NCBI RefSeq assembly: GCF_001661915.1
Contig: NZ_LYWY01000032.1
Location: 62,001 to 126,000, forward strand
Reading direction: 5' to 3'
Source of the DNA: Croceicoccus pelagius
GTDB lineage: Bacteria > Pseudomonadota > Alphaproteobacteria > Sphingomonadales > Sphingomonadaceae
Length of the DNA: 64,000 bases
The stretch's first letter is position 1, and the number at the start of each line of letters is the position of its first letter. A program made the position numbers and the translations under genes. Below are positions 2,942-18,874 of this stretch, one piece after another. A model generated the notes under the pieces. That model searched no databases, had not been told where the DNA came from, and saw nothing but the letters and a program-made list of their open reading frames with translations.

Positions 2942-3390
2942 TTATCTCTTGGCCTTTTCGATGAGGTCGATCAGTTCACCGAATTTCTCGCGCTGTTCGT
3001 CCTCGCTGCCGCTGGCGAAGGCCTCGGCAACGCAGCGCGCGGCGTGGTGGGGGGGGGGGGCGGTCGCCACTGCCGCGCTCTCGATGCCCGCACTGTTGAA
3101 AGCCGCAAGTGTACACGCAGCCGACAGCACGGCGCGCACATCCGCGAGGGCTTCGACCAGGTTTCTGGCCACCGCATAGACCTGACGCGAACAGCGCGGG
3201 GGCGATCCGTATCGGCCGATGCCCGACGCAACAGGCGGCCCGCGGCAGTCAAGCAGATAGCGTATGCGAAACCCATGACAGCCCACCCGCAAAGCAGGAT
3301 GACCCAGTCGATCTCGCCCGAATCCCGGGCCGCCCCTGCGCCAAAGGCAAACAATAGCGCTGTGAGTGCTGCAGCGCCCGGAATCGTCAC
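2942..3390 (-). pseudogene. Small membrane protein gene with an internal frameshift and a C12 tract
   Basis: Translation from the GTG at 3390, behind a good GAGAGG ribosome site, gives a membrane-like N terminus (residues 1-55, two hydrophobic stretches). The convincing C-terminal half (ARNLVEALADV onward, ending LIEKAKR at 2942) is in another frame. The switch must occur near 3195-3210, where a short C run lies, and corresponds to one missing base. Further on, a run of 12 identical bases (3049-3060, C12 in the coding strand) encodes a Pro stretch and is in frame with the C-terminal half. Either this is a decayed or phase-variable gene, or the assembly has homopolymer errors. Intact, it would be about 149 residues; the family is unknown. 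Confidence 0.5.
3049..3060. repeat. G12 homopolymer inside a gene
   Basis: There are twelve consecutive G on the plus strand, the longest homopolymer I noticed. It lies inside the gene at 2942-3390. Such tracts slip during replication and are also prone to sequencing error. Confidence 0.9.
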
Positions 3391-3409
3391 GGTCCTCTCG
3401 CTCAGTCTT

Positions 3410-3452: not shown

Positions 3453-4076
3453 TCAGAGCACTTTCTTGATGTCGCTGTAGGCGCCATCGGTGCGCAGCGT
3501 GACCGTAACAGTGCTGGCCGAACGGTTACGCCAGAACCATCCGTGGCTGCCATCGAAAGCCGCGGTAAGCGTGCCCTTCTCTCCGACCGAGTTACGACCC
3601 TTGTCGTAGCCATGGTAGTCGATGCCGGGTGCGTCGGCATGCGTGTCGAAATTGACCGCGCCACCCGCGACCGACCATTCGTATTCGAGGCTGGCGTCCT
3701 TCATCATGCTGGCCTTGATCTCTGCGGCCTGTCCGGGCTCGAGAGTGATCTCGGTGACATCGGAACGCGCGTTTGCGGTCTCGGCGGGAGGATCCGCTAC
3801 CTCTTGTGCAGCGGTTGCAACGGCAGGCGCGCCCGCCGCCTGCGTTTCGGCGAGCATGGCATCGGCGGCGGCTTCTTCGGCCAGTTGCGCCTTGACCTCA
3901 CCCATATCGGTCAGGCCCAGTGCGCGGCCTGCGCCGGTGGGGTCGATGGCATACTCGGCGGGCAGGACAACTGCCACGAGGATCGCGCCCGCTGAGACGA
4001 GAGCGAAAGCCGAAGCGCGCATGAGTTGGCCGGATGTCGGCAGGTCTTCCACCGAGGGACGTTGTGAATTGAACAT
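3453..4076 (-). CDS. Single-pass transmembrane anchor protein paired with HupE-like permease
   Basis: The 207-residue protein has a cytoplasmic N terminus, one membrane helix (about 19-41), an Ala/Glu-rich spacer (about 60-105) and a periplasmic beta-rich domain ending in a WFWRNRSASTVTVTL segment. Proteins of this layout, annotated only as transmembrane anchor protein, often sit beside HupE/UreJ-type genes. Here the gene starts 3 bp after the HupE-like stop codon, so the two are almost certainly co-translated. The likely role is an accessory subunit of that permease, which is inference from context. No catalytic motif is visible. Confidence 0.65.
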   Translation of the reverse strand: MFNSQRPSVEDLPTSGQLMRASAFALVSAGAILVAVVLPAEYAIDPTGAGRALGLTDMGEVKAQLAEEAAADAMLAETQAAGAPAVATAAQEVADPPAETANARSDVTEITLEPGQAAEIKASMMKDASLEYEWSVAGGAVNFDTHADAPGIDYHGYDKGRNSVGEKGTLTAAFDGSHGWFWRNRSASTVTVTLRTDGAYSDIKKVL

Positions 4077-4079
4077 CGT

Positions 4080-4826
4080 TTATTCTCCGAAAAGAGAATT
4101 GGATAAGGCGACGAAATAGCCGACCAGCTGGTATCCCACGAAGATGAAGCCGGCCGTCATCAGAAGCGTGTTGGCGGCAAAGGCGTGGCGCATGAAGCTG
4201 CCTGTCCTGCGCCAGAAACCCATGAGGATCAGGATCGCGCCAAGCGCGAGCAACTGGCCGATTTCCACGCCCACGTTGAAGGCCAGCAGATTTGGGATGA
4301 GACCGTCCTGCGCGATCTCGAATTCGACGATCTTCGTCGCAAGGCCGAACCCGTGGAAGAACCCGAAGATCAGCGTCGCGACCTTGGTATTGGGCTGTAC
4401 CCCGAACCAGCGCTGGAACGCGCCCAGGTTGTCGAGCGCCTTGTAGACGACCGACAGACCAATGATCGCATCGATCAGGTAGGCATCGGCCGTGATGCCC
4501 GTCAGCACGCCAAACAGCAGCGTCGTCGAGTGGCCGACCGCGAACAGGGTGACGTATATCCCGACGTCCTTCAGCCGGTAGAGAAAGAAGATCACACCGA
4601 ACAGGAACAACAGGTGATCGTAACCCGTCACCATGTGCTTTGCGCCGAGGTAGATGAACGGCATGATCAGGATGCCGCTCGATTCCTGGATGTAGCCCTT
4701 GTCGCCTTCGGCCACGTTATGGGCCCAGGCATCGACGCCGGTGCACAGCATCAGAAGGATCATCAATGCTGCAAAGCTGAGCCGCCGACTGCAGTCATGC
4801 AGGGTGGCTGTGGGTAGTAATGTCAT
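4080..4826 (-). CDS. HupE/UreJ-type membrane permease, probably for a divalent metal
   Basis: The 248-residue protein has a cleavable signal (ending near DAWA-HN) followed by about six hydrophobic helices. HMVTGYDHLLFLFG matches the HupE/UreJ signature of two His around a GxDH turn, and FGFFHGFGLA is a second His-containing membrane motif. Known family members move Ni2+ or Co2+ across the inner membrane. The metal here cannot be read from sequence. I chose the ATG at 4826 (GGAG ten bases upstream); an ATG at 4841 behind GAGAGG is possible. The 137-bp leader was inspected for a cobalamin riboswitch and none was recognised. Confidence 0.78.
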   Translation of the reverse strand: MTLLPTATLHDCSRRLSFAALMILLMLCTGVDAWAHNVAEGDKGYIQESSGILIMPFIYLGAKHMVTGYDHLLFLFGVIFFLYRLKDVGIYVTLFAVGHSTTLLFGVLTGITADAYLIDAIIGLSVVYKALDNLGAFQRWFGVQPNTKVATLIFGFFHGFGLATKIVEFEIAQDGLIPNLLAFNVGVEIGQLLALGAILILMGFWRRTGSFMRHAFAANTLLMTAGFIFVGYQLVGYFVALSNSLFGE

Positions 4827-4963
4827 AGATCGGAACTCCATAAAGGAGGCCTCTCGCCCGAAAGACGAGATGTGTTCCGGCCATGGGATAGCCGCTGGAC
4901 TATCGCTGGCCGACGTTTCCGGGGCGCAGACCGGCGCCAATGGATGGCCCGGCTCGCCAAGGA

Positions 4964-5332
4964 TCAGGCTGAAGGCGGCTCGATCAACGGGGGCGCTTCG
5001 GTCCCGATAAGGGGAACCGTAGCCAACGGAGCAGGCAGCAAGTGAGTCAGTCGCCTCGATTTCATGATCGCGCCTGCCTCCGGCATGCCAAGAACCGCGT
5101 GCCCGTGGGGGGCCGAATGTGATGAAGGCAGATCGCTGGTATTGCTTAGATCTGAACTCTCTTGCGACGGCGCGTCGTGTTCGTGATCACCGTGATAATC
5201 GCCCCCGAGATGGTGCCCGTTTTGTGAGTGCACATGCCCGTGCGCATGATCAAGATGCGGCGTCGCAGCAGCGAAACCGCCGTGTGACACGAGCAGCAGG
5301 ACAGCGACCATCAAGGCAATGACATTGCGCAT
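4964..5332 (-). CDS. Secreted His-rich protein, putative metal binder
   Basis: The 122-residue product has an N-terminal signal sequence (cleavage near GFAAA). Residues about 26-73 carry 13 of its 15 histidines in HxH and GHH clusters with Asp, for example HLDHAHGHVHSQNGHH. The C-terminal part is Pro/Leu-rich and low in complexity. Such a protein would act in the periplasm or outside the cell as a metal buffer or chaperone. It lies between the metzincin-like gene and the HupE-like gene in one operon, which supports a role in handling the transported metal. No enzyme motif is present. Confidence 0.65.
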   Translation of the reverse strand: MRNVIALMVAVLLLVSHGGFAAATPHLDHAHGHVHSQNGHHLGGDYHGDHEHDAPSQESSDLSNTSDLPSSHSAPHGHAVLGMPEAGAIMKSRRLTHLLPAPLATVPLIGTEAPPLIEPPSA

Positions 5333-5399
5333 CTGAGATCAGACTATTTGGGCCGGGACTGCCTGACAATTACCATGATGGCCCATCACGCGTCCGCCG

Positions 5400-6407
5400 T
5401 TACCAGTCCGGATCCATCCCCGAAACGCCAGGGAAATGCACGACCTTCTCGCCATAGAGTGGATCATAGTAATGGCCGCCTTCCTTGTAGTCGGCGTTCC
5501 ATTGCTTTTGACCATCTTTGTCCATGCGATAGACAAACGGAGACGTAAGCAAGCGTTCGAGGTGCCAGCGCCCCTCCTCGCCCGAGGGGATGTCCTCTCC
5601 CTCGCCGTAAAGCATCAGGCCGCCCTTGGCGTAGATTTCGTGCGCCGGGTTGGTGGTCTTGTACTCGTGACTGACGTTCATGACCTTGTGCCCGATTTCG
5701 TGGGCAATCGTGCGGCGACGGCGGTTCGGCGTCGACAGGTTGGTGATCGAAATGACCCCGCGCAGCCTTTCGGGGATCGTGTCGTGGTAGGAATAGGTCG
5801 GGAACGACAGCCCACCCGTACGTACCATCTTCACCGTCCAGTTCCGCCCTTCGGCGACTTCGAGGAACGGGAAGATCACGTCCTGCAGCGCGACAAGGTA
5901 AACCGTGCGCGAATTGGCAGCATCCGGTTCAATCATGCTTTCGAAAGCCGCCTTGGCCATGTCGCTCATTTGAGAGGGGTGGCGCTTCGAAGCGACGTAG
6001 GAATTGACATATTCCGTATCGGGAACGCGGGGGATTTCGTTCGACTGGATCGCGAGAAAACGCTCGTCGATCTCGCCCCGCTTCACGAATAGCAGGTTCA
6101 ACTGCACGCCGGCCGGCGCATAGATTTCCTTGGCTGCGCGAAATGCCTCGATCATCGAGGGCAGAGTCACTTTCTCGAAGCCGGGGTCGAAGTTCGACGG
6201 AATATAGATACCGACATCGACAGTCGGTTTGCCGGCGATGATGTCGGCATTGATCGCGGCGACGTCCACATCGCCGGATGCGGTCCATTCGACCGGCGCC
6301 GCACCAGTGCCAATTTCGGTATCGGTTTCGCCCGCCGATGCGGCTCCCGCGCTGCAAAGCGCGAGAGCCACGATCGCGGCGGAACGCAGGTTTCTGCCCT
6401 TGATCAT
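5400..6407 (-). CDS. Secreted metzincin-like zinc metalloprotease
   Basis: The 335-residue protein has a signal peptide (cleavage near ASAG at about 25). TIAHEIGHKVMNVSHEY places the zinc ligands at His236 and His240 with catalytic Glu237 and a third His at 247. In classical metzincins the third His follows HExxH by five intervening residues; here there are six. GGLMLYGEG downstream may be the Met-turn. It would act in the periplasm or outside. In this operon it may process a metal-binding protein or peptide, or may itself be a metal sensor. The protease fold is likely; the substrate is unknown. Confidence 0.65.
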   Translation of the reverse strand: MIKGRNLRSAAIVALALCSAGAASAGETDTEIGTGAAPVEWTASGDVDVAAINADIIAGKPTVDVGIYIPSNFDPGFEKVTLPSMIEAFRAAKEIYAPAGVQLNLLFVKRGEIDERFLAIQSNEIPRVPDTEYVNSYVASKRHPSQMSDMAKAAFESMIEPDAANSRTVYLVALQDVIFPFLEVAEGRNWTVKMVRTGGLSFPTYSYHDTIPERLRGVISITNLSTPNRRRRTIAHEIGHKVMNVSHEYKTTNPAHEIYAKGGLMLYGEGEDIPSGEEGRWHLERLLTSPFVYRMDKDGQKQWNADYKEGGHYYDPLYGEKVVHFPGVSGMDPDW

Positions 6408-6420
6408 CGTTGTTTCCCGA

Positions 6421-7143
6421 TCAGTCGATCTGGGCGAGGACGGCGTCGAAATCGGGGTTTACGCTGCGCGCGAACTTGATCGCCGGGTGATCCTCTTCGA
6501 GCACGTCGTAATAGTATGCGCCGCCCTTCTTGCGATCCGCATCGACGTTGGCCGCCATCTCCTTGATGCCTTCGTTGAACACCTTGTAGTCGGTGGATTC
6601 GCCCTTGGGCTTGACGATCAGAAGCAGAGCCGGTCCGTTGAACGGCGCTTCCCAACCGGTGGGCATGCCGTCGCCGAAGCGAAACAGCGAGCCCGCTTCC
6701 ATGACCTGGCGCTTGCCTTCGCTGGCCAGCACCCACTTGCCGCGAACGGTATAGACGATGGAACCGATGTCGTGGGGGTGTTCGGCAAGGAACATGCCGG
6801 GCTGGAGTTCGATGAAGAACGCGCGCGTTTCCTCTGCGAACAGGAGCGGGCCGAACAGGCCTTCATGCGTCATTACGGCGGACGACGACTTCACCGCCTT
6901 CTCGATATCGGGGACGATCTCGACGTTGGTGGCGAGCTGGAGATATTCCGGCGACACGTCGGTCGCGGCGATCATCTCGGGGTCCTTGATATCACCTTCG
7001 GCAACCGCGTCGACATCGTGAGTGTGCGTACCTTCACCGTGGGCGTGGGAAGCTTCCTCGGTCGCTTCCATTTCCGGTTCGGCACCGTTGCAGGCGGCAA
7101 GCGACAGGCTGGCGCCCAAAAGGCAAAGTGCTGAAAGTCTCAT
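6421..7143 (-). CDS. Cupin-domain lipoprotein with His-rich leader
   Basis: The start at 7143 has GGAGG eight bases upstream and gives a lipoprotein signal ending LAAC (Cys18). After the lipobox comes an acidic and His-rich linker (ASHAHGEGTHTHDVD). Residues about 100-180 look like a single cupin barrel: FFIELQPGMFLAEHPHD gives possible metal ligands, and GSLFRFGDGMPTGW is the second conserved strand pair. The product would sit on the periplasmic side of a membrane. The gene lies 13 bp before the metzincin-like gene. A metal-binding or sensing role fits the operon but is inferred. Confidence 0.65.
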   Translation of the reverse strand: MRLSALCLLGASLSLAACNGAEPEMEATEEASHAHGEGTHTHDVDAVAEGDIKDPEMIAATDVSPEYLQLATNVEIVPDIEKAVKSSSAVMTHEGLFGPLLFAEETRAFFIELQPGMFLAEHPHDIGSIVYTVRGKWVLASEGKRQVMEAGSLFRFGDGMPTGWEAPFNGPALLLIVKPKGESTDYKVFNEGIKEMAANVDADRKKGGAYYYDVLEEDHPAIKFARSVNPDFDAVLAQID

Positions 7144-7199
7144 CGAAAAACCCTCCATCTTATGGTCCCTAGGTCAGTGCTATTCGTCGTTGTGTGCTT

Positions 7200-7934
7200 T
7201 CAGGTTCGCTGGGCGGTTGCGGTCTTGTCGAAGGATGGCTTGCGGCGGACGAGCCACCGGAAATCACGTCGATTGAACGACTTGAACAGGAGATAGAAGC
7301 CCGTTCCCGACAGGAAGAGCACGCCGAAACCGACCACGATGATCAACGGGTGATTGAAGCTCGTCCTGTCCGCGTAGTCCATGTTGTGGAGCATCCAGAA
7401 GAAGTCCCACAGTCGCCAGTCATCGCCGCGTGCGACGAGGAAGCGACCGGTATCCGCGGCGAAATAGGCGCTGGTCCCTTCGGCATCATCGAAGTCGACA
7501 CGCCACATCGGGCCGGCAAACTCGCGCGCCTCGAGGTTCGGCTTGTTCATCAACGAGATCGAACGGATCGGCGCGTCGACGATAACAGCCGCGCGCTGGC
7601 GCACGAGGGCTTCGTCCACTACAACCGGATCACCGGTCAGGCCGTCGACGATGCGCACGGAACCGCTTTCGCCGATTTCGTAGATCGGCCGTCCGTCGGC
7701 CATGGAAAGCTTCAGGCTTTCGACTTTGCCGATGCCAATGTCCGTCGGTGCGAGCAGTCCCGGAACCGATACCGGATCAGCAGCGATCATCGGCTGGTCG
7801 CGAACGTCCTTCATGTCGATGAACGCCATCATCGCGCCGCTGACGGACCAGAGGATGAACTGGATGCCCAGCACCAGCCCGACCCATTTGTGGACCCGGC
7901 GGAAGAACAGGGGAGTGAACCGGATGCGTTTCAT
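7200..7934 (-). CDS. PepSY-associated transmembrane protein (second copy)
   Basis: The 244-residue protein has an N-terminal helix with RRVHKWVGLVLGIQFILW, the HKW motif typical of PepSY_TM proteins. A periplasmic PepSY-like region follows (about 60-190), then DFFWMLHNMDY and a C-terminal helix. The ATG at 7934 overlaps the stop of the preceding paralogue. PepSY_TM proteins often accompany TonB-dependent siderophore or metal receptors, and some are reductases of the imported ferric complex. The conserved His in the two membrane motifs could bind haem; that is inference. Confidence 0.75.
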   Translation of the reverse strand: MKRIRFTPLFFRRVHKWVGLVLGIQFILWSVSGAMMAFIDMKDVRDQPMIAADPVSVPGLLAPTDIGIGKVESLKLSMADGRPIYEIGESGSVRIVDGLTGDPVVVDEALVRQRAAVIVDAPIRSISLMNKPNLEAREFAGPMWRVDFDDAEGTSAYFAADTGRFLVARGDDWRLWDFFWMLHNMDYADRTSFNHPLIIVVGFGVLFLSGTGFYLLFKSFNRRDFRWLVRRKPSFDKTATAQRT

Positions 7935-8641
7935 GCTGTTTTCTTCTTTTTGCGGCGACGCGGAAAGGCCCAGACAAGAAGCCATGCCCCGCTCAGCGCC
8001 ATGGCCACAGAAAGCCACGTGCTTGTCCGCAGCAGCAGGTTGTTCACGTCGCTGCGATCATCGTAATCCATGATATGCAGCATCCACGCGAAGTCGAAGA
8101 TCCGCCAAAGCGAATGGCGCCGTGAAATAAGCTCACCGCTTTCGGGCGAGATGTAGAAAGTGGGGCTGTCCCAACGATCGAAAGTCACCTGCCAGTACGG
8201 CGGCTTCCTGCCCTGCATCTCCATCGGCGCTTCCTGCAACAGGCTTACCGAGGCTACTTCTTCGTCAGAGGTATAGATATTGCGGGCGATGGTTTCTGCC
8301 TGATCTGCACCGATCAGGCCTAACCGCTCGCCGGTGCCTGCATCGAACAGGGCGACACCTCCAGGTGATGTCACCCGCCAAACAGGCCGGTTCAGCAATG
8401 ACGATGAGCGAACCTCCGAAGCGTCCGGCACGGCCGCAAGGACCGTGCCGGGCGCGACGAGGGACGCCATGTCGACCGCAGGGCGTTCGACCGGCCTGAC
8501 GAGGTGATCGCCATGGATCCGGTCGATGTGGATGACGACCATGTAGAAACCGGTCGCCGTCCACAGCACGACCTGAAGCCCGATAACCAGCGCCAGCCAC
8601 TTGTGCAGGCGCCGGACGAACAGGGGCCATCTGATTTTCAT
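7931..8641 (-). CDS. PepSY-associated transmembrane protein (first copy)
   Basis: The 236-residue protein is a paralogue of its neighbour: RRLHKWLALVIGLQVVLW near the N terminus, a periplasmic domain, DFAWMLHIMDYDDRS, then a C-terminal helix and a Lys/Arg tail. The start at 8641 is 10 bp after the stop of the TonB-dependent receptor, so the two are one transcript. Together the pair may form a heterodimeric inner-membrane partner of the receptor, for example reducing a metal complex in the periplasm. The family call rests on the HKW and WMLH-MDY motifs; the biochemical role is inferred. Confidence 0.75.
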   Translation of the reverse strand: MKIRWPLFVRRLHKWLALVIGLQVVLWTATGFYMVVIHIDRIHGDHLVRPVERPAVDMASLVAPGTVLAAVPDASEVRSSSLLNRPVWRVTSPGGVALFDAGTGERLGLIGADQAETIARNIYTSDEEVASVSLLQEAPMEMQGRKPPYWQVTFDRWDSPTFYISPESGELISRRHSLWRIFDFAWMLHIMDYDDRSDVNNLLLRTSTWLSVAMALSGAWLLVWAFPRRRKKKKTA

Positions 8642-8651
8642 AGCGTGCCGC

Positions 8652-11330
8652 TCAGAACCCGGCACGGACACCGACATAGAACCTGCGGCCCATGAGGTCG
8701 TAAGTCATCGTGTCGGTATTCGCATCGGTCCAGCTGCGCACGAACGGCGCATCGCGGTCGAAGACATTGTCGACGCCGAAGGAGAAGCGATAGTTGTCCG
8801 CCACGTCGAACGCGATCTGGGCGTTGTGGTAGAAAACGTCCGGCATGGAATAGCCAAGATCGCCCGGAGCCGCGTTAAAGTCGGTGCCCGAACCGATCCA
8901 TTGGGTCGACCACGTGCCCGTAACAGCGCCCTTGGCGACTGAGAGCACACCGTACCCGCGCCATTCCGGATAACCGCCGTTGCCGCCGCCGATGTGACCG
9001 TCGAATTCGATCGGAGCACCGCCTTCGAAGGGGTAGACGACATATTCGTTGAGCCAGGTGACATTGAGGTTCAGCGTCACTTCGAAGTCGCCGATCATCC
9101 GGTCGTAGATCATGCCGAGATCGAGACCGCTCATCTTTTCGAGGCCGGTGTTGATCGACTGCGCCTGAAGGTAGGTGATCTCGCCGGTCAGCGAACTGCG
9201 CGTGAAGTCGTCGCAGAATGCACTGCTGAGATTTTCGCTGGCATAGCAGACCGCCAGCTTGGTCGAGCCCGGGATCGTGCGGATCGCGTCCTGGATCTCG
9301 ATGTCGAACCAGTCGGCGGTGAAGGTCAGGCCGCTGGTCGGCTCGATCACCGCGCCCAAAGTCCAGGTGGTCGAATCTTCCGGCTGCAGATCGGGATTGC
9401 CGCCACGGCTGGTCAAAACCGTGCCGCCAAGCTGGGTGTAGCCTGCAGGAACGCCCGATGCCTGGCAATTGGCAATCAGCGTCGCGTTGCCGCTGGTGCT
9501 GTAGCCGCTGCACGGATCGGTCGTCGTCAGATTGCCTTCGGACACGCCGCTGAACAGTTCGGGGACATTCGGCACGCGGAAACCGGTGCCGTGAGTCGCG
9601 CGCAGCCTCACGCCATCGACGATCGCCCAGTCTGCGCCAAGTTTGTAGTTCCAGTCAGTGCCGAACAGATCATAATCGGAAAAGCGCAACGCGCCGTCTA
9701 GCACGAAGGACTGCGCGAAAGGCGCGTCGCCGAACACGGGGACCGAGACTTCGGCGTAAGCTTCCTTGGCCGAGATCGAACCGGAGATCGGGTCTTGCTG
9801 GTTGGTGTTGGCGATGCCCGCGACCGTCAGCTCATCCGGCGTGCGCCAGCCCTTTTCCTTGCGATAGGTTGCGCCAGCGGCAAAGCCGACCGTGCCTGCC
9901 GGTAATTCGAAGAGGTCTCCGGTAACGTCGGCCGTCACGGAAAACAGCTCGTTGCCGCCTTTGTCGACGGCAGTGAAGAGCAAATAATCCAGCACTTCCG
10001 GAGTCAGATCGCCATAACCGAGCGGATCGGCGCAAGGGATGCCGTTGGCCCCGCAGGTATCCGGATCGAGTGCGTAACCGAGGTTCTGCAGATTGACGAC
10101 ATTGGTCTGGCCGTCATCGCCCGTGTTCTTGCCCCAGGTCGCCGCGACTTCCCAGTTCCACCCGCTCGGCAGCTGGCCGCGCAGGCCGCCGCTGGCCTGA
10201 TAGGTATCTGTGTCCTGGAAAAACCCGCGCGGTCCGGCCTCCTTCAGGCGCCGCTGGATCAGCAGGATATCCTCGCCCGTCGGGTTGATCGGATTGTCGG
10301 CTGCGATCGCGATGTTGCGCAGCGTACCGGGCGTCGCGATTTGGTTCGTCTTGCGCTTGGTGTACAGGAATTCGCCGAACAGCTCGACGGAATCGGTCAG
10401 CGCGTAGTCGCCGAAAGCAGCAATGTTATAACGCTCGATCGGGTTCACCGCGTTGAGATCACGGACGTAATTGTAGTTGTGAATGGCCGAGGAATAAGGC
10501 TCGTAGAAGTCGCCGTCGCCGCCCAGTTCCTGGTTGAAGTTGATCATGGTGCCGTCAGGCAGGGCCGCACGGCCGCCAATAGTCGCCGCGCTGTTGCTGC
10601 AGACGAGCGAGCCGGATGCGCCGCTATAGGCACAGGGAACCCTGTTGCCCATGTTGATCGGATCGGTGTTCTGATACGTCGCTGCGACCATCACGCCGCC
10701 GCGTTCACCACGAATGCCGCCCATGAAGTCGAGCGTGCGATCCTGGCCGTCGCCCTCTTCGGTGATGCCATAGCGTCCGCCGACCTCCAGACCTTCGAAA
10801 TCCTTGCGGGTAATGAGGTTGACCACACCTGCCACCGCATCGGCGCCGTAGACGGCCGATGCGCCGTCTTTCAGCACTTCGGTGCGGGCCAACATGTTTA
10901 CCGGGATCATGTTTAGGTCGGGCGAAGAGTTCGCGCCGGTACCGCCCGCGACGATGCGGCGGCCGTTCAAAAGGACCAGTGTGCGCTTGATCCCAAGGCC
11001 GCGGAGGTTGACCTGCGACGTTCCCCATCCGTTGCCCGTCCAGTAGGCCGCCGTCTGGTTGCCAGCCTGACCGGCGTTGGCGGGCAGACGCTGCAACAGG
11101 GTTTCCACATTGACGATGCCGGTATTGGCGATTTCTTCCTGCGTGACGATGGTCGTCGGCCCGACGCCTTCGATGTCGGCGCGGCGGATGCGTGAACCGG
11201 TCACGACGATTGGCGCGGCTTGGGTTTCGCCTGCGCCATCGGTTTCAGAACCCCCTTCCTGAGCATGTGCAGGTGCAGCGATTGCGGCCGCCATGGCGCC
11301 GCCGGCGAGAAGGAAAGTTCTGAAGTCCAT
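8652..11330 (-). CDS. TonB-dependent outer-membrane receptor, first gene of metal-type operon
   Basis: The 892-residue receptor has a signal peptide ending APAHAQ and the TonB-box region APIVVTGSRIRRADIEG. Its plug domain contains NLRGLGIKRTLVLLNGRR and TEVLKDGASAVYGADAVAGV, and a long beta-barrel ends with the C-terminal signature RRFYVGVRAGF. The start at 11330 has AGGGAGG upstream. It imports a ligand across the outer membrane with TonB energy. The plug type is common in sphingomonads and does not reveal the ligand. Downstream PepSY, His-rich and HupE-like genes suggest a metal or metal chelate. A HutC-type palindrome lies 73 bp upstream of the start. Confidence 0.9.
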   Translation of the reverse strand: MDFRTFLLAGGAMAAAIAAPAHAQEGGSETDGAGETQAAPIVVTGSRIRRADIEGVGPTTIVTQEEIANTGIVNVETLLQRLPANAGQAGNQTAAYWTGNGWGTSQVNLRGLGIKRTLVLLNGRRIVAGGTGANSSPDLNMIPVNMLARTEVLKDGASAVYGADAVAGVVNLITRKDFEGLEVGGRYGITEEGDGQDRTLDFMGGIRGERGGVMVAATYQNTDPINMGNRVPCAYSGASGSLVCSNSAATIGGRAALPDGTMINFNQELGGDGDFYEPYSSAIHNYNYVRDLNAVNPIERYNIAAFGDYALTDSVELFGEFLYTKRKTNQIATPGTLRNIAIAADNPINPTGEDILLIQRRLKEAGPRGFFQDTDTYQASGGLRGQLPSGWNWEVAATWGKNTGDDGQTNVVNLQNLGYALDPDTCGANGIPCADPLGYGDLTPEVLDYLLFTAVDKGGNELFSVTADVTGDLFELPAGTVGFAAGATYRKEKGWRTPDELTVAGIANTNQQDPISGSISAKEAYAEVSVPVFGDAPFAQSFVLDGALRFSDYDLFGTDWNYKLGADWAIVDGVRLRATHGTGFRVPNVPELFSGVSEGNLTTTDPCSGYSTSGNATLIANCQASGVPAGYTQLGGTVLTSRGGNPDLQPEDSTTWTLGAVIEPTSGLTFTADWFDIEIQDAIRTIPGSTKLAVCYASENLSSAFCDDFTRSSLTGEITYLQAQSINTGLEKMSGLDLGMIYDRMIGDFEVTLNLNVTWLNEYVVYPFEGGAPIEFDGHIGGGNGGYPEWRGYGVLSVAKGAVTGTWSTQWIGSGTDFNAAPGDLGYSMPDVFYHNAQIAFDVADNYRFSFGVDNVFDRDAPFVRSWTDANTDTMTYDLMGRRFYVGVRAGF

Positions 11331-11402
11331 GTGGATGCCTCCCTTGGCTTGATGTCCGGGCCGTAAGGAAACAGTCACACGAGCGGCGGTCAACAACTAT
11401 TT

Positions 11403-11412
11403 TGTATATACA
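11403..11412. promoter_or_regulatory. HutC-type operator upstream of TonB receptor operon
   Basis: TGTATATACA is a perfect 10-bp palindrome of the TGTA-N2-TACA form known for HutC repressors. It lies between hutC and the receptor gene, in the receptor's leader. A CTGACA element upstream on the minus strand could be a -35, which would put the palindrome over the -10 region. HutC repression is inferred. Confidence 0.55.
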
Positions 11413-11513
11413 TGAATTTTCTGTCAGATTGTTATTATGGAAGCGCTTTACGCACATAATCATGCCACCGGACGGCTGGTCCGATGATTAAAAGTTTCTT
11501 TTGCGTAATATTA

Positions 11514-12209
11514 TTATGCAGACGCACCGAAGCGAGCAACGAGCGTATACGAATCGCCAAGAAACAATTGCCGCACTGCGGTAATGTGCTCACCCGACCG
11601 CCAAGTGCGGCGGATCAGCGAAAGGCAGGCTGTATTGTCTGCGACACCAAGTGCGCGAGCCTCCCGATCCGAGACTGCGGTCGCAGAGATTGCGGTTTCT
11701 GCTTCGGTCCAGGGGACATGTTTCAGCAGCCACGTGCCGGGGCTGTCCGGATCGAATACCGCATCGTCGATCTCCGGCACTGCCGTCAGGCTCACCGCAC
11801 GGCTTTCATGCGCGAACGGTTTCCCGTCAGCTATGTGCACTCCAACAGTCCACAAGACGTCTCCCTCGATCTCGAGCGAACTGTCGACCTTGCCCGCATT
11901 GCATATCTCTCGGTGCAGAAGACGATAGCGATACTTCTGCCCGCTTTCCTGGATCTCGTGCGCGAGGTCGGGAATGTCGAGCACCATGGCGTGCGCTTTC
12001 GGCGCAGCGACAAACGTGCCAGCCTTGCGCTTGCGGTTGACCAAACCGGCTGCGGCGAGCGCAGAGATAGCCTTGTTCACCGTCATGCGGGAGCAGCCAT
12101 ATTCTGCCATCAAGTCGTGTTCGATAGGCAGACGGTCGCCCGGCATCATTTCGCCGGAGAGAATCCGGGACTCGATGTCCCGTCGGATGCGCTCGTGCAG
12201 AGCAGTCAT
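11514..12209 (-). CDS. hutC: Histidine utilisation repressor HutC
   Basis: The 231-residue GntR-family regulator has an N-terminal winged helix (GDRLPIEHDLMAEYGCSRMT, then VNKAISALAAAGLVNRKRKAGTFV) and a C-terminal UTRA effector domain (about 85-225). In known systems HutC binds urocanate and then releases the hut promoters. The ATG overlaps the hutF stop codon (ATGA), so repressor and HutF are made together. Two palindromes of the expected type lie nearby, at 11403 and 13602, consistent with autoregulation and control of hutIHGU. The subfamily call rests on the gene neighbourhood as well as the domains. Confidence 0.9.
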   Translation of the reverse strand: MTALHERIRRDIESRILSGEMMPGDRLPIEHDLMAEYGCSRMTVNKAISALAAAGLVNRKRKAGTFVAAPKAHAMVLDIPDLAHEIQESGQKYRYRLLHREICNAGKVDSSLEIEGDVLWTVGVHIADGKPFAHESRAVSLTAVPEIDDAVFDPDSPGTWLLKHVPWTEAETAISATAVSDREARALGVADNTACLSLIRRTWRSGEHITAVRQLFLGDSYTLVARFGASA

Positions 12210-13570
12210 GCGATGAGCGCTTTCAGCACTGCCCTGTATTCCCCCTCGACCTGATCACGCATCACATGACGCCCGCCGCTTACGACCAATCGACCCCGCC
12301 GCCACACGCTATCGATTGCGCGCGAGCCGGCTGAAAAGATCAAGTGGTCGATCAAGGCGTCATCCCTTTGCGCCCCGCATACCAAAACGTCCTCTCGCAG
12401 TGCAACGAGATCGGCTGACGCCCCCGGCCGGATGCCGCCGTCCAGGCCCAATGCATGCCAGCCACCGTGAAGCGCGCACTCCAGTAAAGATCGGCCGTTC
12501 GACATAAATTTCTTTGAAGTCATAATGTTGCGAGCCTGCAAATGAAGTCTCTGGCCGTATTCGAGTACCCGCAATTCCTCCGCCATATCGATCCGGACAT
12601 TAGAGTCGGAGCCAATTCCAAACCGCCCGCCTGCCTCCATGAAGGCCTGAGCGGGGAAAATCCCATCGCCGAGGTTAGCTTCAGTAACAGGGCACAATCC
12701 GACGACCGCTCCTGATCCTGCCATGTCCGACACCTCGCCAACATCGACGTGCGTGGCATGAACGAGGCACCATCGGGAGCCCACCCTTGCGTTGTCGAGC
12801 AACCAGCGAACGGGCGTCGTGCCGAGCGCTGCACGACAATCTGCGACCTCGCGCACCTGCTCGGCGATGTGGATGTGGATCGGCCCGTCACCTGCCAGTT
12901 CCTCCAATGCGCTCAGCTCCTGGGGTGTCACGGCGCGCAAAGAGTGCGGGGCAAGCCCGACTACCGCATCGGGCAGATCAGCCGCGCCTTCCCGACACCG
13001 CTCCAGCAAATGCGAAAACTCATCCAGATCGCAAACGAAACGGGCCTGCGCCTCGGTCGGAGGAGCGCCGTTAAAGCCGCCATGCGCGTAAAAAACGGGC
13101 AGGTGAGTGACCGCAATGCCGGTCTGCCATGCAGCAGCGAAAATCGCATTGGACATCTCGGCAAGATTTCCGAACCGTCCACCTGAAACATCATGGTGAA
13201 GGTAATGGAATTCTCCAACGCGGGTGAACCCGCTCTCTAGCATTTCGATTTGCGCCATCGCAGCGACCTTGCGCAACTGGTCCGGATCAATCGTGCCGGC
13301 AAGCCGATACATGAGATCGCGCCATGACCAAAAGTCATCGCCGTCTGAGCTTCTGTATTCAGCAAGGCCTGCCATCGCGCGTTGAAATGCGTGACTGTGC
13401 AGGTTGGGCATTCCGGGGATCGCCACGCCATAGTGCTCGGCACCTATCGGAAGCTGAGCGTCCGGTTCGACTGTCTTGATCAGGCCATCGGCAAGAGTGA
13501 TGCTGACTTGCGAACGCCATCCCTCGGGAAGAAGCGCCTTGGCAAAGTGCAAAACCCCATCTTGCCTCAT
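12206..13570 (-). CDS. hutF: Formimidoylglutamate deiminase HutF
   Basis: The 454-residue amidohydrolase would convert N-formimidoyl-L-glutamate to N-formyl-L-glutamate plus ammonia, the alternative fourth step of histidine breakdown. The metal-site motifs are NLHSHAFQRAMAG (the HxH of strand 1), a mid-chain HIHIAEQ, LVHATH, and GSDSNVRIDMAEELR with the metal-binding Asp. The frame is open upstream to 13837, but the start at 13570 (MRQDGVLHF) fits the family and leaves the palindrome at 13602 in the untranslated leader. It pairs logically with hutG on the divergent operon. Confidence 0.9.
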   Translation of the reverse strand: MRQDGVLHFAKALLPEGWRSQVSITLADGLIKTVEPDAQLPIGAEHYGVAIPGMPNLHSHAFQRAMAGLAEYRSSDGDDFWSWRDLMYRLAGTIDPDQLRKVAAMAQIEMLESGFTRVGEFHYLHHDVSGGRFGNLAEMSNAIFAAAWQTGIAVTHLPVFYAHGGFNGAPPTEAQARFVCDLDEFSHLLERCREGAADLPDAVVGLAPHSLRAVTPQELSALEELAGDGPIHIHIAEQVREVADCRAALGTTPVRWLLDNARVGSRWCLVHATHVDVGEVSDMAGSGAVVGLCPVTEANLGDGIFPAQAFMEAGGRFGIGSDSNVRIDMAEELRVLEYGQRLHLQARNIMTSKKFMSNGRSLLECALHGGWHALGLDGGIRPGASADLVALREDVLVCGAQRDDALIDHLIFSAGSRAIDSVWRRGRLVVSGGRHVMRDQVEGEYRAVLKALIA

Positions 13571-13601
13571 AACATGCAACGCCCCGTCGTTTTGAGATCT
13601 A

Positions 13602-13617
13602 TATTGTCTATACAATA
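13602..13617. promoter_or_regulatory. HutC-type operator between hutF and hutI
   Basis: TATTGTCTATACAATA has 6-bp inverted arms (TATTGT and ACAATA) and lies in the 90-bp gap between the divergent hutF and hutI starts. Its core TGTC-TA-TACA resembles the perfect TGTA-TA-TACA site at 11403. It is the natural control point for both hut transcripts. Confidence 0.65.
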
Positions 13618-13660
13618 AATGATAGCTATGCAACATACTGTCGGTGAGGAGGTAGCGGCA

Positions 13661-14863
13661 ATGACGCGATGCGAAACGATATGGACCGCAGCACGGTTGG
13701 CGACGATGGAAGGTGGCCGCCTGAAGGTCATCCCCGACGCCGTGATTGCCGCACAAAACGGGTGTATCACATATGTCGGATCGGCTAGCGAAGCGCCGGA
13801 GCTCACCGCCGATCGCACTGTCGATTGCGAAGGACACCTCGTCACACCCGGCCTAATCGATTGCCACACCCACCTCGTCTTTGCCGGAAATCGCGCTGCC
13901 GAGCACGAGATGCGCCGCACGGGCGCCACTTACGAAGAAATCTCCCGCGCCGGCGGCGGCATCCGTTCTACCGTCGCGGCTACGCGAGCCGCGAGCGAGG
14001 ATGAGCTCGTCGCATCTGCCCTGCCCCGCCTCGACGCGCTGATCGCCGAGGGGGCGACGACTGTCGAGGTGAAGTCTGGCTACGGCCTCGAGCTCGAAAC
14101 AGAAATGCGCATCCTGCGCGCCGCTCGCAGACTGGCTGACGAGCGCCCCGTCACGATCCGCACGACGTTCCTTGGCGCGCACGCATTGCCCGCTGAGTTC
14201 GCTGGTCACGCCGACGATTACATCGATCTCGTCACGCAGGATATGATCCCCGCCGTGGCCGCAGAAAACCTTGCCGACGCCGTCGATGCATTCTGCGAGA
14301 ACATCGGCTTTTCCCCTGCACAGACCGAACGGGTATTCGAAGCCGCCGCGGCACACGGCCTGCCGGTCAAACTTCACGCAGAGCAACTGTCCGACCAGAA
14401 GGGCGCAAGCCTTGCTGCCGTCCATGGCGCGCTTTCGGCGGACCATCTCGAATATCTTGACGATGCGGGCGTGGCTGCGATGGCGAAGGCAGGGACTGTC
14501 GCCACCCTGCTTCCCGGTGCGTTCTATTTCATGCGCGAAACCCGCAAGCCGCCCGTCGCCATATTGCGCGAGGCGGGTGTGCCGATGGCACTGGCGACCG
14601 ATTGCAACCCCGGAACGTCTCCTCTCACATCGCTGCTGCTCGCGATGAACATGGGTTCGGTGCTGTTCGGCTTGACGGTCGAGGAGTGCCTTGCCGGAGT
14701 GACCTGCAACGCGGCCCGCGCGCTCGGCATGGGCGAAAATACCGGCACGCTCACTGCCGGCAAGCAGTGCGACATGGCGATCTGGAACGTCGGCGATCCT
14801 GCCGAACTGGTCCACGCGATGGGCACGAACCCGCTTCACGCCCGCATCTGGAGAGGACGATGA
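13661..14863 (+). CDS. hutI: Imidazolonepropionase HutI
   Basis: The 400-residue metal-dependent amidohydrolase opens the imidazolone ring of 4-imidazolone-5-propionate to give formimidoylglutamate, the third step of histidine breakdown. Motifs seen are [19 protein letters not shown] (metal HxH and substrate contact), [25 protein letters not shown], and [10 protein letters not shown] with the metal Asp. The start at 13661 has GAGGAGG about ten bases upstream. An in-frame ATG at 13619 would begin beside the operator and is less likely. The stop overlaps the hutH start (ATGA). Confidence 0.93.
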
Positions 14864-16389
14864 CCGACCTGACCCTGCAGCCGGGGGCAGTCACACTGTC
14901 CCAGTGGCGCGCGATCTATCGCGGCGGGCGGCCCACGCTCGACCCCGCCTGTATGGACGGTGTGCGGGAAAGCGCCGCCTCGGTCGAGCGTATCCTTGCG
15001 CGCGGCGAGCCGGTCTATGGCATCAACACCGGCTTCGGAAAGCTGGCGAGCGTGCGGATCGACGACGCCGACCTCGCCACGCTTCAGCGCAATATCGTGC
15101 TGAGCCACGCAGCAGGCGTGGGCGAGGCTTCGCCCGAACCGGTTGTCCGCCTGATGATGGCGCTCAAAATGGTCAGCCTCGCGCGCGGGGCGTCGGGTAT
15201 CCGGCCCGGGACGCTGGACCTGCTGGCTGCGATGATTGAACGCGGACTGACGCCGATCATCCCCTGTCAGGGTTCGGTCGGCGCCAGCGGCGATCTTGCC
15301 CCGCTTTCGCATTTGGCGACAACGATGATCGGCGAAGGCGAGATTGTTCTCGATGGCGAGCGTCTACCCGCTGCCGAAGCACTGGAACGGGCAGGCCTTG
15401 CCGCGCTGACACTCGGACCCAAGGAAGGCCTCGCGCTGTTGAACGGTACGCAGTTCTCCTGCGCCAACGCGCTGGCCGGATTGTTCGAGGCCGAAACCCT
15501 GCTGCAAACCGCGCTCGTCACCGGTGCGCTTTCGACGGAAGCGGCCAAGGGTTCCGATACGCCTTTCGATCCGCGCATTCACGATCTTCGCGGCCATGCC
15601 GGCCAGATCGAAACCGCCGCCGCGCTCCGCAAATTGATGGACGGTTCCAACATCCGCGCCAGCCACCTCAAGGGCGACGAGCGCGTGCAGGATCCCTATT
15701 GCCTGCGCTGTCAGCCGCAAGTGATGGGCGCGGCGCTAGACATGATGCGCCAGGCGGCCACCACTTTGTCGGTCGAAGCAAACGGCGTTTCGGACAATCC
15801 GCTGATCTTCGCCGATACCGACGAGGCGCTTTCAGGCGGGAACTTCCATGCAGAACCGGTCGCCTTCGCCGCCGACATGCTGGCAATGGCCATCTGCGAG
15901 ATAGGCTCGTTGTCGGAGCGCCGCATCGCCATGCTGGTCGATCCGGCGCTGTCGGGCCTTCCCGCGTTCCTGACGCCAAAGCCGGGGCTCAATTCGGGCT
16001 TCATGATCCCGCAAGTCACCGCTGCCGCGCTCGTTTCGGAAAACAAGCAGCGCGCGTTCCCGGCCAGCGTCGATTCGATACCGACCTCGGCGAACCAGGA
16101 AGACCACGTTTCGATGGCAGCGCACGGTGCGCGGCGCCTTGCCGACATGGCCCGCAATGCCGGCGGTGTGATCGCGATCGAGGCGCTGGCCGCTGCTCAA
16201 GGAATCGATTTCCACGCCCCGCTTTCGTCCAGCAAATCGCTCGAGGCGGCGCGCGCCCTGATTCGCCAGCTGGTCCCCCCGCTGTCGGACGACCGCTATT
16301 TCCATCCCGACATGGAAAAGGCTGCTTCGCTCGTCCTTTCAGGAAAACTCGCCGCTGCGGCAGACACGGACCTTCCGGCGATCGGGTGA
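14860..16389 (+). CDS. hutH: Histidine ammonia-lyase HutH
   Basis: The 509-residue enzyme removes ammonia from L-histidine to give urocanate, the first step of the pathway. The [14 protein letters not shown] motif supplies Ala142-Ser143-Gly144, which cyclise autocatalytically to the MIO electrophile; this is the same numbering as the classical bacterial enzyme. [11 protein letters not shown] near the N terminus and the NQEDHVSM segment near the C terminus are further family signatures. The length matches the family. The start overlaps the hutI stop and the end overlaps the hutG start. Confidence 0.96.
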
Positions 16390-17216
16390 TGAACGACTGG
16401 CTGGAAATACACCGGGGCACGGTGCCGCTTGTCGTCGCCTTTCCGCATACCGGCTCTGACCTTGCCGATGTCGAATGCCAGTTCGCATCGCCATGGCTCG
16501 CCCGCCGCGATGCGGACTGGTGGGTGGACCGGCTCTACGCCTTTGTCCGCGAACTCGGCGCGACGACGATCCGCACCGCCATTTCGCGCAGCGTGATCGA
16601 CGTGAACCGCGATCCGTCGGGCATCTCGCTCTATCCGGGGCAGGCCACCACTGAACTGTGCCCGACGACCACATTCGACGGCGAGCCGCTCTATTCGGGC
16701 AGCGAACCCGACGAGGCCGAGATAGCCCGCCGCCGTGACAGATGGTTCCTGCCCTATCACGCCGAGATCAAGAGCGAATTGGCCCGCCTGCGCGCAGATC
16801 ACCCCTCGGTCGTCCTCTACGACGCCCATTCGATCCGCAGCCGCGTGCCCCGCCTGTTCGACGGCAAGCTTCCGCAGTTCAATATCGGCACCAACTGCGG
16901 CGAGACTTGCGACAAGGCACTGTCCAATGCCGTCTCCGCAATCTGTGCGGAAAGCGGACGCAGTCACGTCCTCGACGGCCGGTTCCGCGGGGGTTGGACG
17001 ACGCGCCACTATGGCCGCCCCGCCGACGGAATCCACGCCATCCAGATGGAACTCGCCATTCGCGGCTATGCGGCCGAGCCCGACCATCCCTCCTCCTCGA
17101 ACTGGCCGCCACCGTTCGAGCCCGACTACGCCGCCGCGCTTGCCGCGACGCTGTCCGACATCCTGAAGGCCTGCATCGCCTTCGCCCAAAACAAATCCGG
17201 GAAGAGTGACCAATGA
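16389..17216 (+). CDS. hutG: N-formylglutamate deformylase HutG
   Basis: The 275-residue protein belongs to the N-formylglutamate amidohydrolase family and would release formate and L-glutamate in the last step. [26 protein letters not shown] and [18 protein letters not shown] match the family. The last of these and [11 protein letters not shown] carry the likely metal-binding His and Asp residues. Together with HutF this defines the five-step formylglutamate route rather than the direct formiminoglutamase route. Translation is coupled on both sides by overlaps with hutH and hutU. Confidence 0.92.
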
Positions 17217-18874
17217 CCCGTATCGACAACACCCGCACGATCCGCCCCGCGACGGGCAGCGAGATCACGACAAAGAGCTGGCTGACCGAGGCCCCCATGC
17301 GGATGTTGATGAACAACCTGCATCCCGACGTTGCCGAACGTCCCGAGGAACTGGTCGTCTATGGCGGCATTGGCCGCGCCGCCCGCGACTGGGAAAGCTA
17401 TGACCGTATCGTCGAGACGCTGCAGCGCCTGGATGATGACGAAACGCTGCTGGTGCAGTCCGGCAAGCCTGTTGGCGTATTCCGTACGCATCCTGATGCT
17501 CCGCGTGTCCTTATCGCCAACAGCAACCTCGTTCCCAAGTGGGCGGACTGGGAGCATTTCGGCGAACTCGATAAGAAGGGTCTCGCCATGTACGGGCAGA
17601 TGACCGCCGGGTCGTGGATCTACATCGGCACGCAGGGCATCGTTCAGGGCACTTACGAGACTTTCGCCGAGATGGGCCGCCAGCATTACGGCGGCGATCT
17701 GGCGGGGCGCTGGTTGCTGACGGCAGGCCTTGGCGGCATGGGCGGTGCGCAACCTTTGGCGGCAGTCATGGCAGGCGCGTCGTGCCTTGCGATCGAGTGT
17801 CAGCCGAGCCGCATCGAAATGCGCCTTCGCACAGGCTATCTCGACCGCAGCGCGACGACGATCAAGGAGGCAATGGCTATCATCGAGAAGGCCAATGCCG
17901 CGAAAACCGCGGTTTCCGTCGGTCTGCTCGGCAATGCCGCCGAAATCCTGCCCGAAATGTATCGCCGCGGCATCCGCCCCGACCTCCTTACCGACCAGAC
18001 CAGCGCGCACGACCCCGTCAACGGCTACCTTCCCGCAGGCTGGACCGTCGCCGAATGGATCGAGCAGCGCGAGCGTGAACCCGAAGCCGTTGCCAAGGCG
18101 GCGAAAGCCTCGATGGCGATCCACGTGCGCGCGATGCTGGATTTCCAGTCGGCGGGCGTCCCCACAGTCGATTACGGCAACAACATTCGCCAGGTCGCCA
18201 AGGACGAAGGCGTCGAGAATGCTTTTGACTTCCCCGGCTTCGTTCCGGCCTACATCCGACCGTTGTTCTGTCGCGGGATCGGGCCGTTCCGCTGGGCCGC
18301 GCTTTCGGGAGATCCCGAGGACATCTATCGCACCGACCAGAAGGTGAAGGAACTGATGCCAGAGGACGAGCACTTGCACCGTTGGCTCGACATGGCGCGT
18401 GAGAAGATCCACTTCCAGGGCCTGCCCGCCCGGATCTGCTGGGTCGGCCTTGGCGATCGTCACCGGCTGGGCCTGGCCTTCAACGAGATGGTGGCGAACG
18501 GCGAGTTGAAAGCGCCTGTCGTCATCGGGCGCGACCACCTTGACAGCGGATCGGTCGCAAGCCCTAATCGCGAGACCGAGGCGATGAAGGACGGGTCCGA
18601 CGCTGTCAGCGACTGGCCGCTGCTCAACGCCCTGCTCAACACCGCCAGCGGCGCGACCTGGGTCTCGCTCCACCACGGCGGCGGCGTTGGCATGGGCTAT
18701 TCGCAGCACTCGGGCATGGTCATCGTCGCGGACGGCACCGACGCAGCGGCCAAGCGGCTGGAACGCGTGCTCTGGAACGATCCGGCGACCGGAGTGATGC
18801 GCCACGCCGATGCGGGTTACGACATCGCCATCGACTGCGCGCGCGAAAAGGGTCTCGACCTCCCCTCGCTCTGA
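17213..18874 (+). CDS. hutU: Urocanate hydratase HutU
   Basis: The 553-residue enzyme hydrates urocanate to 4-imidazolone-5-propionate using tightly bound NAD+ as an electrophile. Visible segments include [40 protein letters not shown] (the NAD-binding region), [34 protein letters not shown] and [15 protein letters not shown]. The length is typical. It is the last gene of the hutIHGU transcript. No hairpin terminator is obvious directly after the stop, and no histidine permease gene follows. Confidence 0.96.

Follow-up and report, generated by a model that had tools for sequence, protein, structure and literature searches.

The question raised by this locus is why genes with the marks of metal chemistry should lie directly behind the repressor gene of a histidine degradation pathway. 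It is found in a 64-kb stretch of the Croceicoccus pelagius genome (contig NZ_LYWY01000032.1, positions 62,001 to 126,000, here called the window), where eight collinear minus-strand open reading frames (ORFs), all confirmed between positions 3453 and 11396, code for a TonB-dependent receptor, two PepSY proteins (PepSY1 and PepSY2), a cupin lipoprotein, a metzincin-like protein, a His-rich protein, a HupE-type permease and a 207-aa protein. An initial annotation of the window regarded these as a single eight-gene metal-uptake system with HupE as the importer. This could not be maintained, with a core of receptor and PepSY proteins now set apart from a tail that is a decayed efflux operon, while the metal-handling character that it gave to the operon is supported. 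The reading favoured here, at a probability of about 0.55, is that the receptor and a two-protein heme reductase, switched by the histidine utilization repressor HutC, serve the use of metal-bound histidine, the metal likely being Cu(II). The substrate, the metal, the heme and the reductase activity are what we infer from the genes and their relatives.

The HutC operator and its conservation

An operator-type palindrome for HutC (TTGTATATACAT on the plus strand, 11402..11413) lies 71 bp ahead of the receptor ATG. Its core, TGTATATACA at 11403-11412, is the sole TGTA-N2-TACA in the 64 kb, where shuffled sequences lead to an expectation of 0.01, and this is the consensus derived from HutC footprints (PMC12977541, in part). 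The 12-mer class WTGTMTATACAW is present at just two places in the 3.3-Mb genome, namely at the receptor operon and in the gap between hutF and hutI (13604..13615). The neighbouring gene is indeed hutC (11514..12209, minus strand; TIGR02018 263.9 bits, cut-off 220), so that both the position behind hutC and the operon's own palindrome were correctly described.

The receptor family was followed through 28 loci, these being 14 loci with the metzincin-like protein (the window, 12 proteobacterial loci and L055), six with receptor-PepSY1-PepSY2 beside a hutC-like gene, three further units in genomes G590 (two) and G580 (one), and five with a fused reductase (L056, L086-L089). Three of the receptors (L080-L082) are identical in the receptor tree, and locus counts of neighbours refer to the DNA stretch examined around each gene. 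A HutC box precedes the receptor operon in 25 of the 28, not always with perfect consensus, and at no more than two mismatches to TTGTATATACAA in 22. Under a weight matrix built without these sites, the boxes of L015 and L085 are the best of 20,918 and 12,938 positions, respectively, and that of L016 is weak (rank 2). In L013, where the run begins with PepSY1, the box lies ahead of that gene, and in L086 and L087 it lies ahead of a small gene preceding the receptor. This small gene codes for an exported Met/Cys/His-rich protein (L086:6299-6721, L087:5963-6427) which gave no Pfam match (L087) and no NCBIfam match (L086, L087).

Hut genes are found near the receptor in 23 of the 28 loci, with none in the examined stretch of L056 and L086-L089. 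The hutC beside L080-L083 was called from 27-30% identity to the window HutC, while a hutC above the curated cut-off was confirmed in G044 (L084) and G103 (L085). The module is therefore not one which occurs widely without hut genes and palindrome, the pattern that the initial annotation had named as speaking against it. Among five distant receptors (31-35% identity), neither box nor hut gene was found (0/5 for each).

In two genomes the box and the hut genes are far apart. The 12-mer has two copies in G015, one at the hut locus and one ahead of a receptor operon that is separated from it by 1.0 Mb of the same contig. G027 has three copies, of which one belongs to the hut locus, one precedes a receptor operon on the same contig at a distance of 2.5 Mb, and the third lies elsewhere. 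Boxes at receptor operons so far from hut loci argue that HutC control does not depend on proximity. Comparative genomics thus supports the predicted control of the receptor operon by HutC, and with it by histidine, as the conservation of the box also does for this claim in the initial annotation; the histidine link of the operon is supported well beyond chance. The third box of G027 is a perfect TTGTATATACAA (L138:8842-8853) that has neither hut genes nor a receptor module for neighbours, and exact boxes in G104 (L141) and G075 (L142), like this one, are near none of the query genes.

The box is missing in L056, L088 and L089, the last of which stops about 500 bases past the receptor. L056 has a FecR gene (Pfam) ahead of its receptor, while L088 has an ORF resembling this FecR and one sigma-factor-like ORF (by eye), and a swap of regulator is possible for the two. 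Both loci (L056:472-11104, L088:1211-10000) also combine the receptor family with a reductase, HupE and DUF4198, to which L056 adds a metzincin-like protein.

The receptor-PepSY core

The receptor (8652..11330, minus strand) possesses the Pfam plug and barrel domains of its class, in agreement with its orthologues and the tree, and its start is more likely the ATG at 11330 (892 aa) than the TTG at 11396 (914 aa). It is followed on the same strand by PepSY1 (7931..8677) and PepSY2 (7200..8018), both matched by PepSY_TM (PF03929; 41.4 and 31.5 bits, cut-off 28.8). When each gene is taken from its earliest possible start, receptor and PepSY1 overlap by 26 bp and PepSY1 and PepSY2 by 88 bp, and the remaining five gaps of the run are 41, 13, 67, 23 and 3 bp. 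The compact run described earlier is therefore real; the gaps of 3-137 bp given for it are in fact tighter, with two overlaps and otherwise 3-67 bp.

The usual partner of the receptor is the PepSY pair rather than HupE, as a PepSY pair or fusion is present in 23 of the 28 loci and HupE in 13. A receptor of at least 51% identity was found in 12 of 147 genomes of the order, the window's included, and in six of these (four distinct receptors) receptor-PepSY1-PepSY2 stands beside a hutC-like gene, with no cupin, metzincin-like protein or HupE in the examined stretch. The three further units of G590 and G580 likewise consist of receptor-PepSY1-PepSY2-hutC with their own box, in addition to hut operons having a hutC of their own. 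It may be added that G590, a metagenome-assembled genome of Phenylobacterium, combines three receptor modules that have a HutC box with four repressors of the HutC family scoring above the curated cut-off (L026, L132, L133, L134).

The architecture of the PepSY pair suggests a transmembrane reductase. A structural model of PepSY1 (pLDDT 79) shows two long membrane-type helices around the PepSY domain. His25 is near one end of the first of these (17-48), and His201 is in a short helix (190-202) that precedes the second (214-237). Two His residues are invariant in 16 of 16 sequences of PepSY1 and PepSY2 alike, these being His25 and His201 in PepSY1, which makes four per pair. In the reductases FoxB and CrpH, four His residues at the membrane, two per face, serve as heme ligands (PMC13038864, in part). 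A single ORF of 838-852 aa, FNR-like at its C-terminus, contains both PepSY regions in each of L056 and L086-L089 (L087:9581-12106, L056:4847-7378, L086:9634-12192, L088:2580-5108, L089:1363-3879), and Fer2, FAD_binding_6 and NAD_binding_1 were identified in the two that were scanned (L087 and L056). The fusion to a reductase module argues that the two PepSY regions act jointly and pass electrons across the membrane; the pair would bind heme and carry out the reduction. PepSY_TM reductases have at least four transmembrane segments per chain; the PepSY1 model has two, and four are reached only by the pair or within the fused ORFs. The direct structural likeness to FoxB is weak. Both points weigh against the reductase assignment.

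The next two genes are add-ons to the core of receptor and PepSY pair. The cupin lipoprotein (6421..7158, minus strand; lipobox by eye) gave an AraC_binding match above the Pfam cut-off and a Cupin_2 match slightly below, and has an N-terminal His-rich stretch, shared by several of its relatives. His98 and the HxH of His127 and His129 are invariant in 13 alignment rows. The metzincin-like exported protein (5400..6407, minus strand; HEIGHKVMNVSHE, Met265) has 23 relatives at 47-95% identity to the query, a Peptidase_M78 match (24.3 bits, cut-off 22) and a model (pLDDT 66) with a fold like that of ulilysin and other metzincins. The canonical zinc motif of metzincins is HExxHxxGxxH/D. In the window protein the corresponding motif, HEIGHKVMNVSH, is non-canonical, with the third His one residue later and the Gly replaced, so that the earlier metzincin-like call holds for the fold and not for the motif; His236, His240, Asn244 and His247 are nevertheless invariant in 24 rows. 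A Protein Data Bank sequence search with four alignments (A1-A4) gave nothing useful.

Searching genome contigs with the metzincin-like protein gave 25 loci, 12 labelled as proteobacterial and 13 as Bacteroidota or Balneolota. The receptor and one or more hut genes are present at all 12 proteobacterial loci, with the cupin in 11, HupE in nine and the PepSY pair in seven, while among the other 13 no hut gene (flanks up to 10 kb) and a single cupin were found. The protein is also rare. It occurs in 3 of 196 genomes from the order, the window's among them, in the window's alone out of 385 from the class, and in 5 of 199 from the family that includes G590. With this rarity and the lack of hut linkage in Bacteroidota/Balneolota (0/13), it was rejected as a core marker. 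In Balneolaceae (L027-L033, L035) it lies in a largely conserved run which, scanned in L029, codes for an S10 carboxypeptidase, a beta-lactamase-fold protein, a CBM9 protein and a GHL10 protein. As seen in L029, this context is peptidase-like and keeps peptide trimming as a rival role for the protein.

The efflux-type tail and links to metals

The last three genes, on the minus strand like the rest, are those of an exported His-rich protein (4964..5332), the permease (4080..4940; HupE_UreJ_2, PF13795, 185 bits, cut-off 24.5) and the 207-aa protein (3453..4076), which has a single anchor and is the regular partner of HupE; the first and last of these gave no match in the Pfam scan. Their origin is shown by Croceicoccus gelatinilyticus (L011), which is 88.7% identical to the window DNA over 5400-16385. 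There the module is followed by an arrangement like that of CzcCBA-type efflux, with a 42% homologue of the His-rich protein opening the run, then an outer-membrane factor, an adaptor, a CusA/CzcA-family RND pump (TIGR00914, 1536 bits), HupE, the 207-aa protein and a major facilitator superfamily (MFS) gene. In the window, by contrast, only 23 bp separate the His-rich gene from HupE, no RND or outer-membrane factor was matched with the C. gelatinilyticus queries (the adaptor was not queried), and the MFS gene is a remnant of 70 codons (3199..3408, minus strand; 84% identity to the 444-aa C. gelatinilyticus gene). With the pump and outer-membrane factor gone and an MFS remnant left, the window tail is a decayed operon, and the His-rich protein, HupE and the last gene are the leftovers of CzcA-type heavy-metal RND efflux. 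The RND motif ALDFGLIVDGAVIIVEN of C. gelatinilyticus is one which we take to be CzcA-like, and copper-specific efflux was rejected for that species on this ground.

The tree places the window HupE inside a clade of RND-linked HupE (support 99/96 and 100/100). Coming from a decayed efflux operon, it is evidence for the removal of metal no less than for its import, and as proof of import it was rejected for the window. The hut-linked HupE of Caulobacterales and that of L056/L088 form separate lineages, and HupE of other lineages adjoins the same module at least two more times, so that a metal permease is a recurrent partner of it. In L023 and L026 (Phenylobacterium) the gene order of the window is kept, with a DUF5666-like protein where the window has the His-rich one (in L018 it matched DUF5666 and CusF, each time below the Pfam cut-off) and a DUF4198-like protein after the last gene. 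Elsewhere (L036-L054), HupE and the 207-aa anchor protein often form a stand-alone pair, at some loci beside heavy-metal RND pumps, and of 149 genomes from the family to which G590 belongs, 28 have the anchor protein.

A link to copper emerges from the wider neighbourhood. Of the 28 loci, 10 have a gene for CopC or for a copper-type P-type ATPase at most 10 kb from the receptor, where 0.61 would be expected (P ~1.6e-10, assuming uniform placement, ignoring shared ancestry and with match counts tallied by hand). One of the ten (G587) is a weak fragment at a contig end, without which the count is 9 of 28 (P ~4e-9), and the ATPase of G579 barely passes (397.4 against 397); copper genes at about 15-19 kb in G080, G097 and G119 were left out. 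In L086 a MerR-family regulator and a copper-type ATPase come directly after the reductase. No CopC or copper-type ATPase is listed near the module in the window genome (G000). Copper is the most likely metal for the family as a whole, and a candidate in the window strain. HupE and DUF4198-like proteins stand beside modules of separate lineages, and PepSY_TM and DUF4198 genes have been reported beside iron-responsive TonB receptors in Alteromonas (PMC7190382, in part) and beside TonB receptors tied to Zur (PMC4176598, in part).

Proposed function and its alternatives

In the mechanism proposed, HutC bound at the box at 11402 would repress the operon until histidine or urocanate appears. The ligand imported to the periplasm by the TonB receptor would then contain histidine and would most probably be a complex of histidine with a metal, for example Cu(II)-histidine, histidine being a tight binder of metals; import of metal-histidine by the cell was also part of the initial annotation. 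PepSY1 and PepSY2 together would form a membrane heme reductase in which electrons from inside reduce the bound metal and free the histidine, which would go to the Hut pathway. The cupin lipoprotein and the metzincin-like protein may be periplasmic helpers holding freed metal or trimming ligands, and the efflux remnants may handle co-imported metal. Histidine would be the purpose and metal a by-product, because the switch is histidine and not metal. In its fullest form, with the receptor taking up Cu(II)-histidine and a cytoplasm-powered di-heme PepSY pair stripping the histidine as food, the proposal is tentative and less probable than the general reading.

Some of this has counterparts in known systems. 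A TonB receptor under HutC control was already predicted in Caulobacterales and Sphingomonadales, with histidine uptake as the suggested role (Leyn et al., 2016; PMC5343134); it may or may not be the same receptor, and the HutC section, in the part available, has no PepSY partner, reductase, cupin, metzincin-like protein or metal. The Caulobacter ferrioxamine uptake system HiuABC has a TonB receptor followed by a FoxB-like PepSY_TM protein, as here (PMC12424826, in part). However, the single longer chain is replaced here by two 2-helix proteins and Fur control by HutC, and relatives of the window module carry a fused NAD(P)H reductase module. In Bordetella copper import (CrtA-CrpH) a TonB receptor and a PepSY_TM partner are tied to chelated copper (PMC12914433, PMC13038864, in part); the likeness is one of gene arrangement, and that system is copper-responsive whereas this one is histidine-linked. 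Open-access literature searches found nothing joining PepSY with histidine utilization, HupE with PepSY, TonB-dependent receptor and cupin, or HupE/UreJ with TonB-dependent uptake and zinc, and no match on copper-histidine complex uptake, in the portions available, concerned bacterial uptake.

The alternatives differ in what they make the goal of uptake. His-rich peptides or proteins could be cut by the metzincin-like protein and other peptidases, imported by the receptor and fed as histidine to Hut, with metals incidental. The metzincin fold, the invariant HExxH and Met, the Balneolaceae run with its S10 serine carboxypeptidase and beta-lactamase-fold protein, among others, and L020, where the metzincin-like protein adjoins a TonB-receptor-like protein and an M14 carboxypeptidase, all fit such scavenging. 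Yet in 13 of the 28 examined stretches, all of which have a PepSY pair or fusion, the protein was not seen; nine of them are the loci with receptor, PepSY pair and hutC, and the other four come from the five loci with a fused reductase. It is also hard to see what a fused NAD(P)H reductase would do in the uptake of peptides, and this explanation is considered unlikely.

Slightly less probable still is that histidine serves as a metallophore, the goal being Cu, Ni, Co, Zn or Fe and HutC reporting the presence of the carrier. The separate HupE lineages beside the module, the FecR-type neighbours in L056 and L088, the Bordetella copper system and the Alteromonas iron-responsive loci cited above would all suit metal acquisition, but HutC would switch the system off in metal-starved cells lacking histidine, and the named metal genes nearby (CopA-like, CopC, CzcA-type RND) are mostly those of efflux or resistance. 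Ordinary iron or siderophore uptake, placed near hut by chance, would account for a receptor-PepSY arrangement known from ferrisiderophore systems such as HiuABC. It is strongly disfavoured and very improbable, given the box in 25 and hut genes in 23 of the 28 loci and the boxes unlinked to hut in two genomes.

Little work has addressed the bacterial uptake of amino acids that are bound up in metal complexes. If the favoured reading of metal-bound histidine as food is true, a likely metal reductase would be under a catabolic repressor, and the consumption of an amino acid would thereby be tied to metal chemistry, giving a nutrient-uptake system with the chemistry of metal uptake. Orphan PepSY/TonB operons would gain a testable substrate, and the HutC box a use as marker for finding such operons in other proteobacterial genomes.

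Upstream of the receptor, the order is hutC and hutF (12206..13837, minus strand, start uncertain), then the divergent hutI (13619..14863), hutH (14602..16389, the longest ORF, with the true start further in), hutG and hutU (17213..18874), all on the plus strand. Apart from hutC, these names are presumptive, being assigned from general knowledge and from similarity across loci (for hutU, in L085 and L134-L140). About 5 kb past hutU, and without a HutC box, lies the gene of an amino-acid-permease-like protein (24002-25195, minus strand; by eye), and a gene of L087 (12226-13575), located after those of the receptor and the reductase, codes for an amino-acid permease that has HHHH at the C-terminus.
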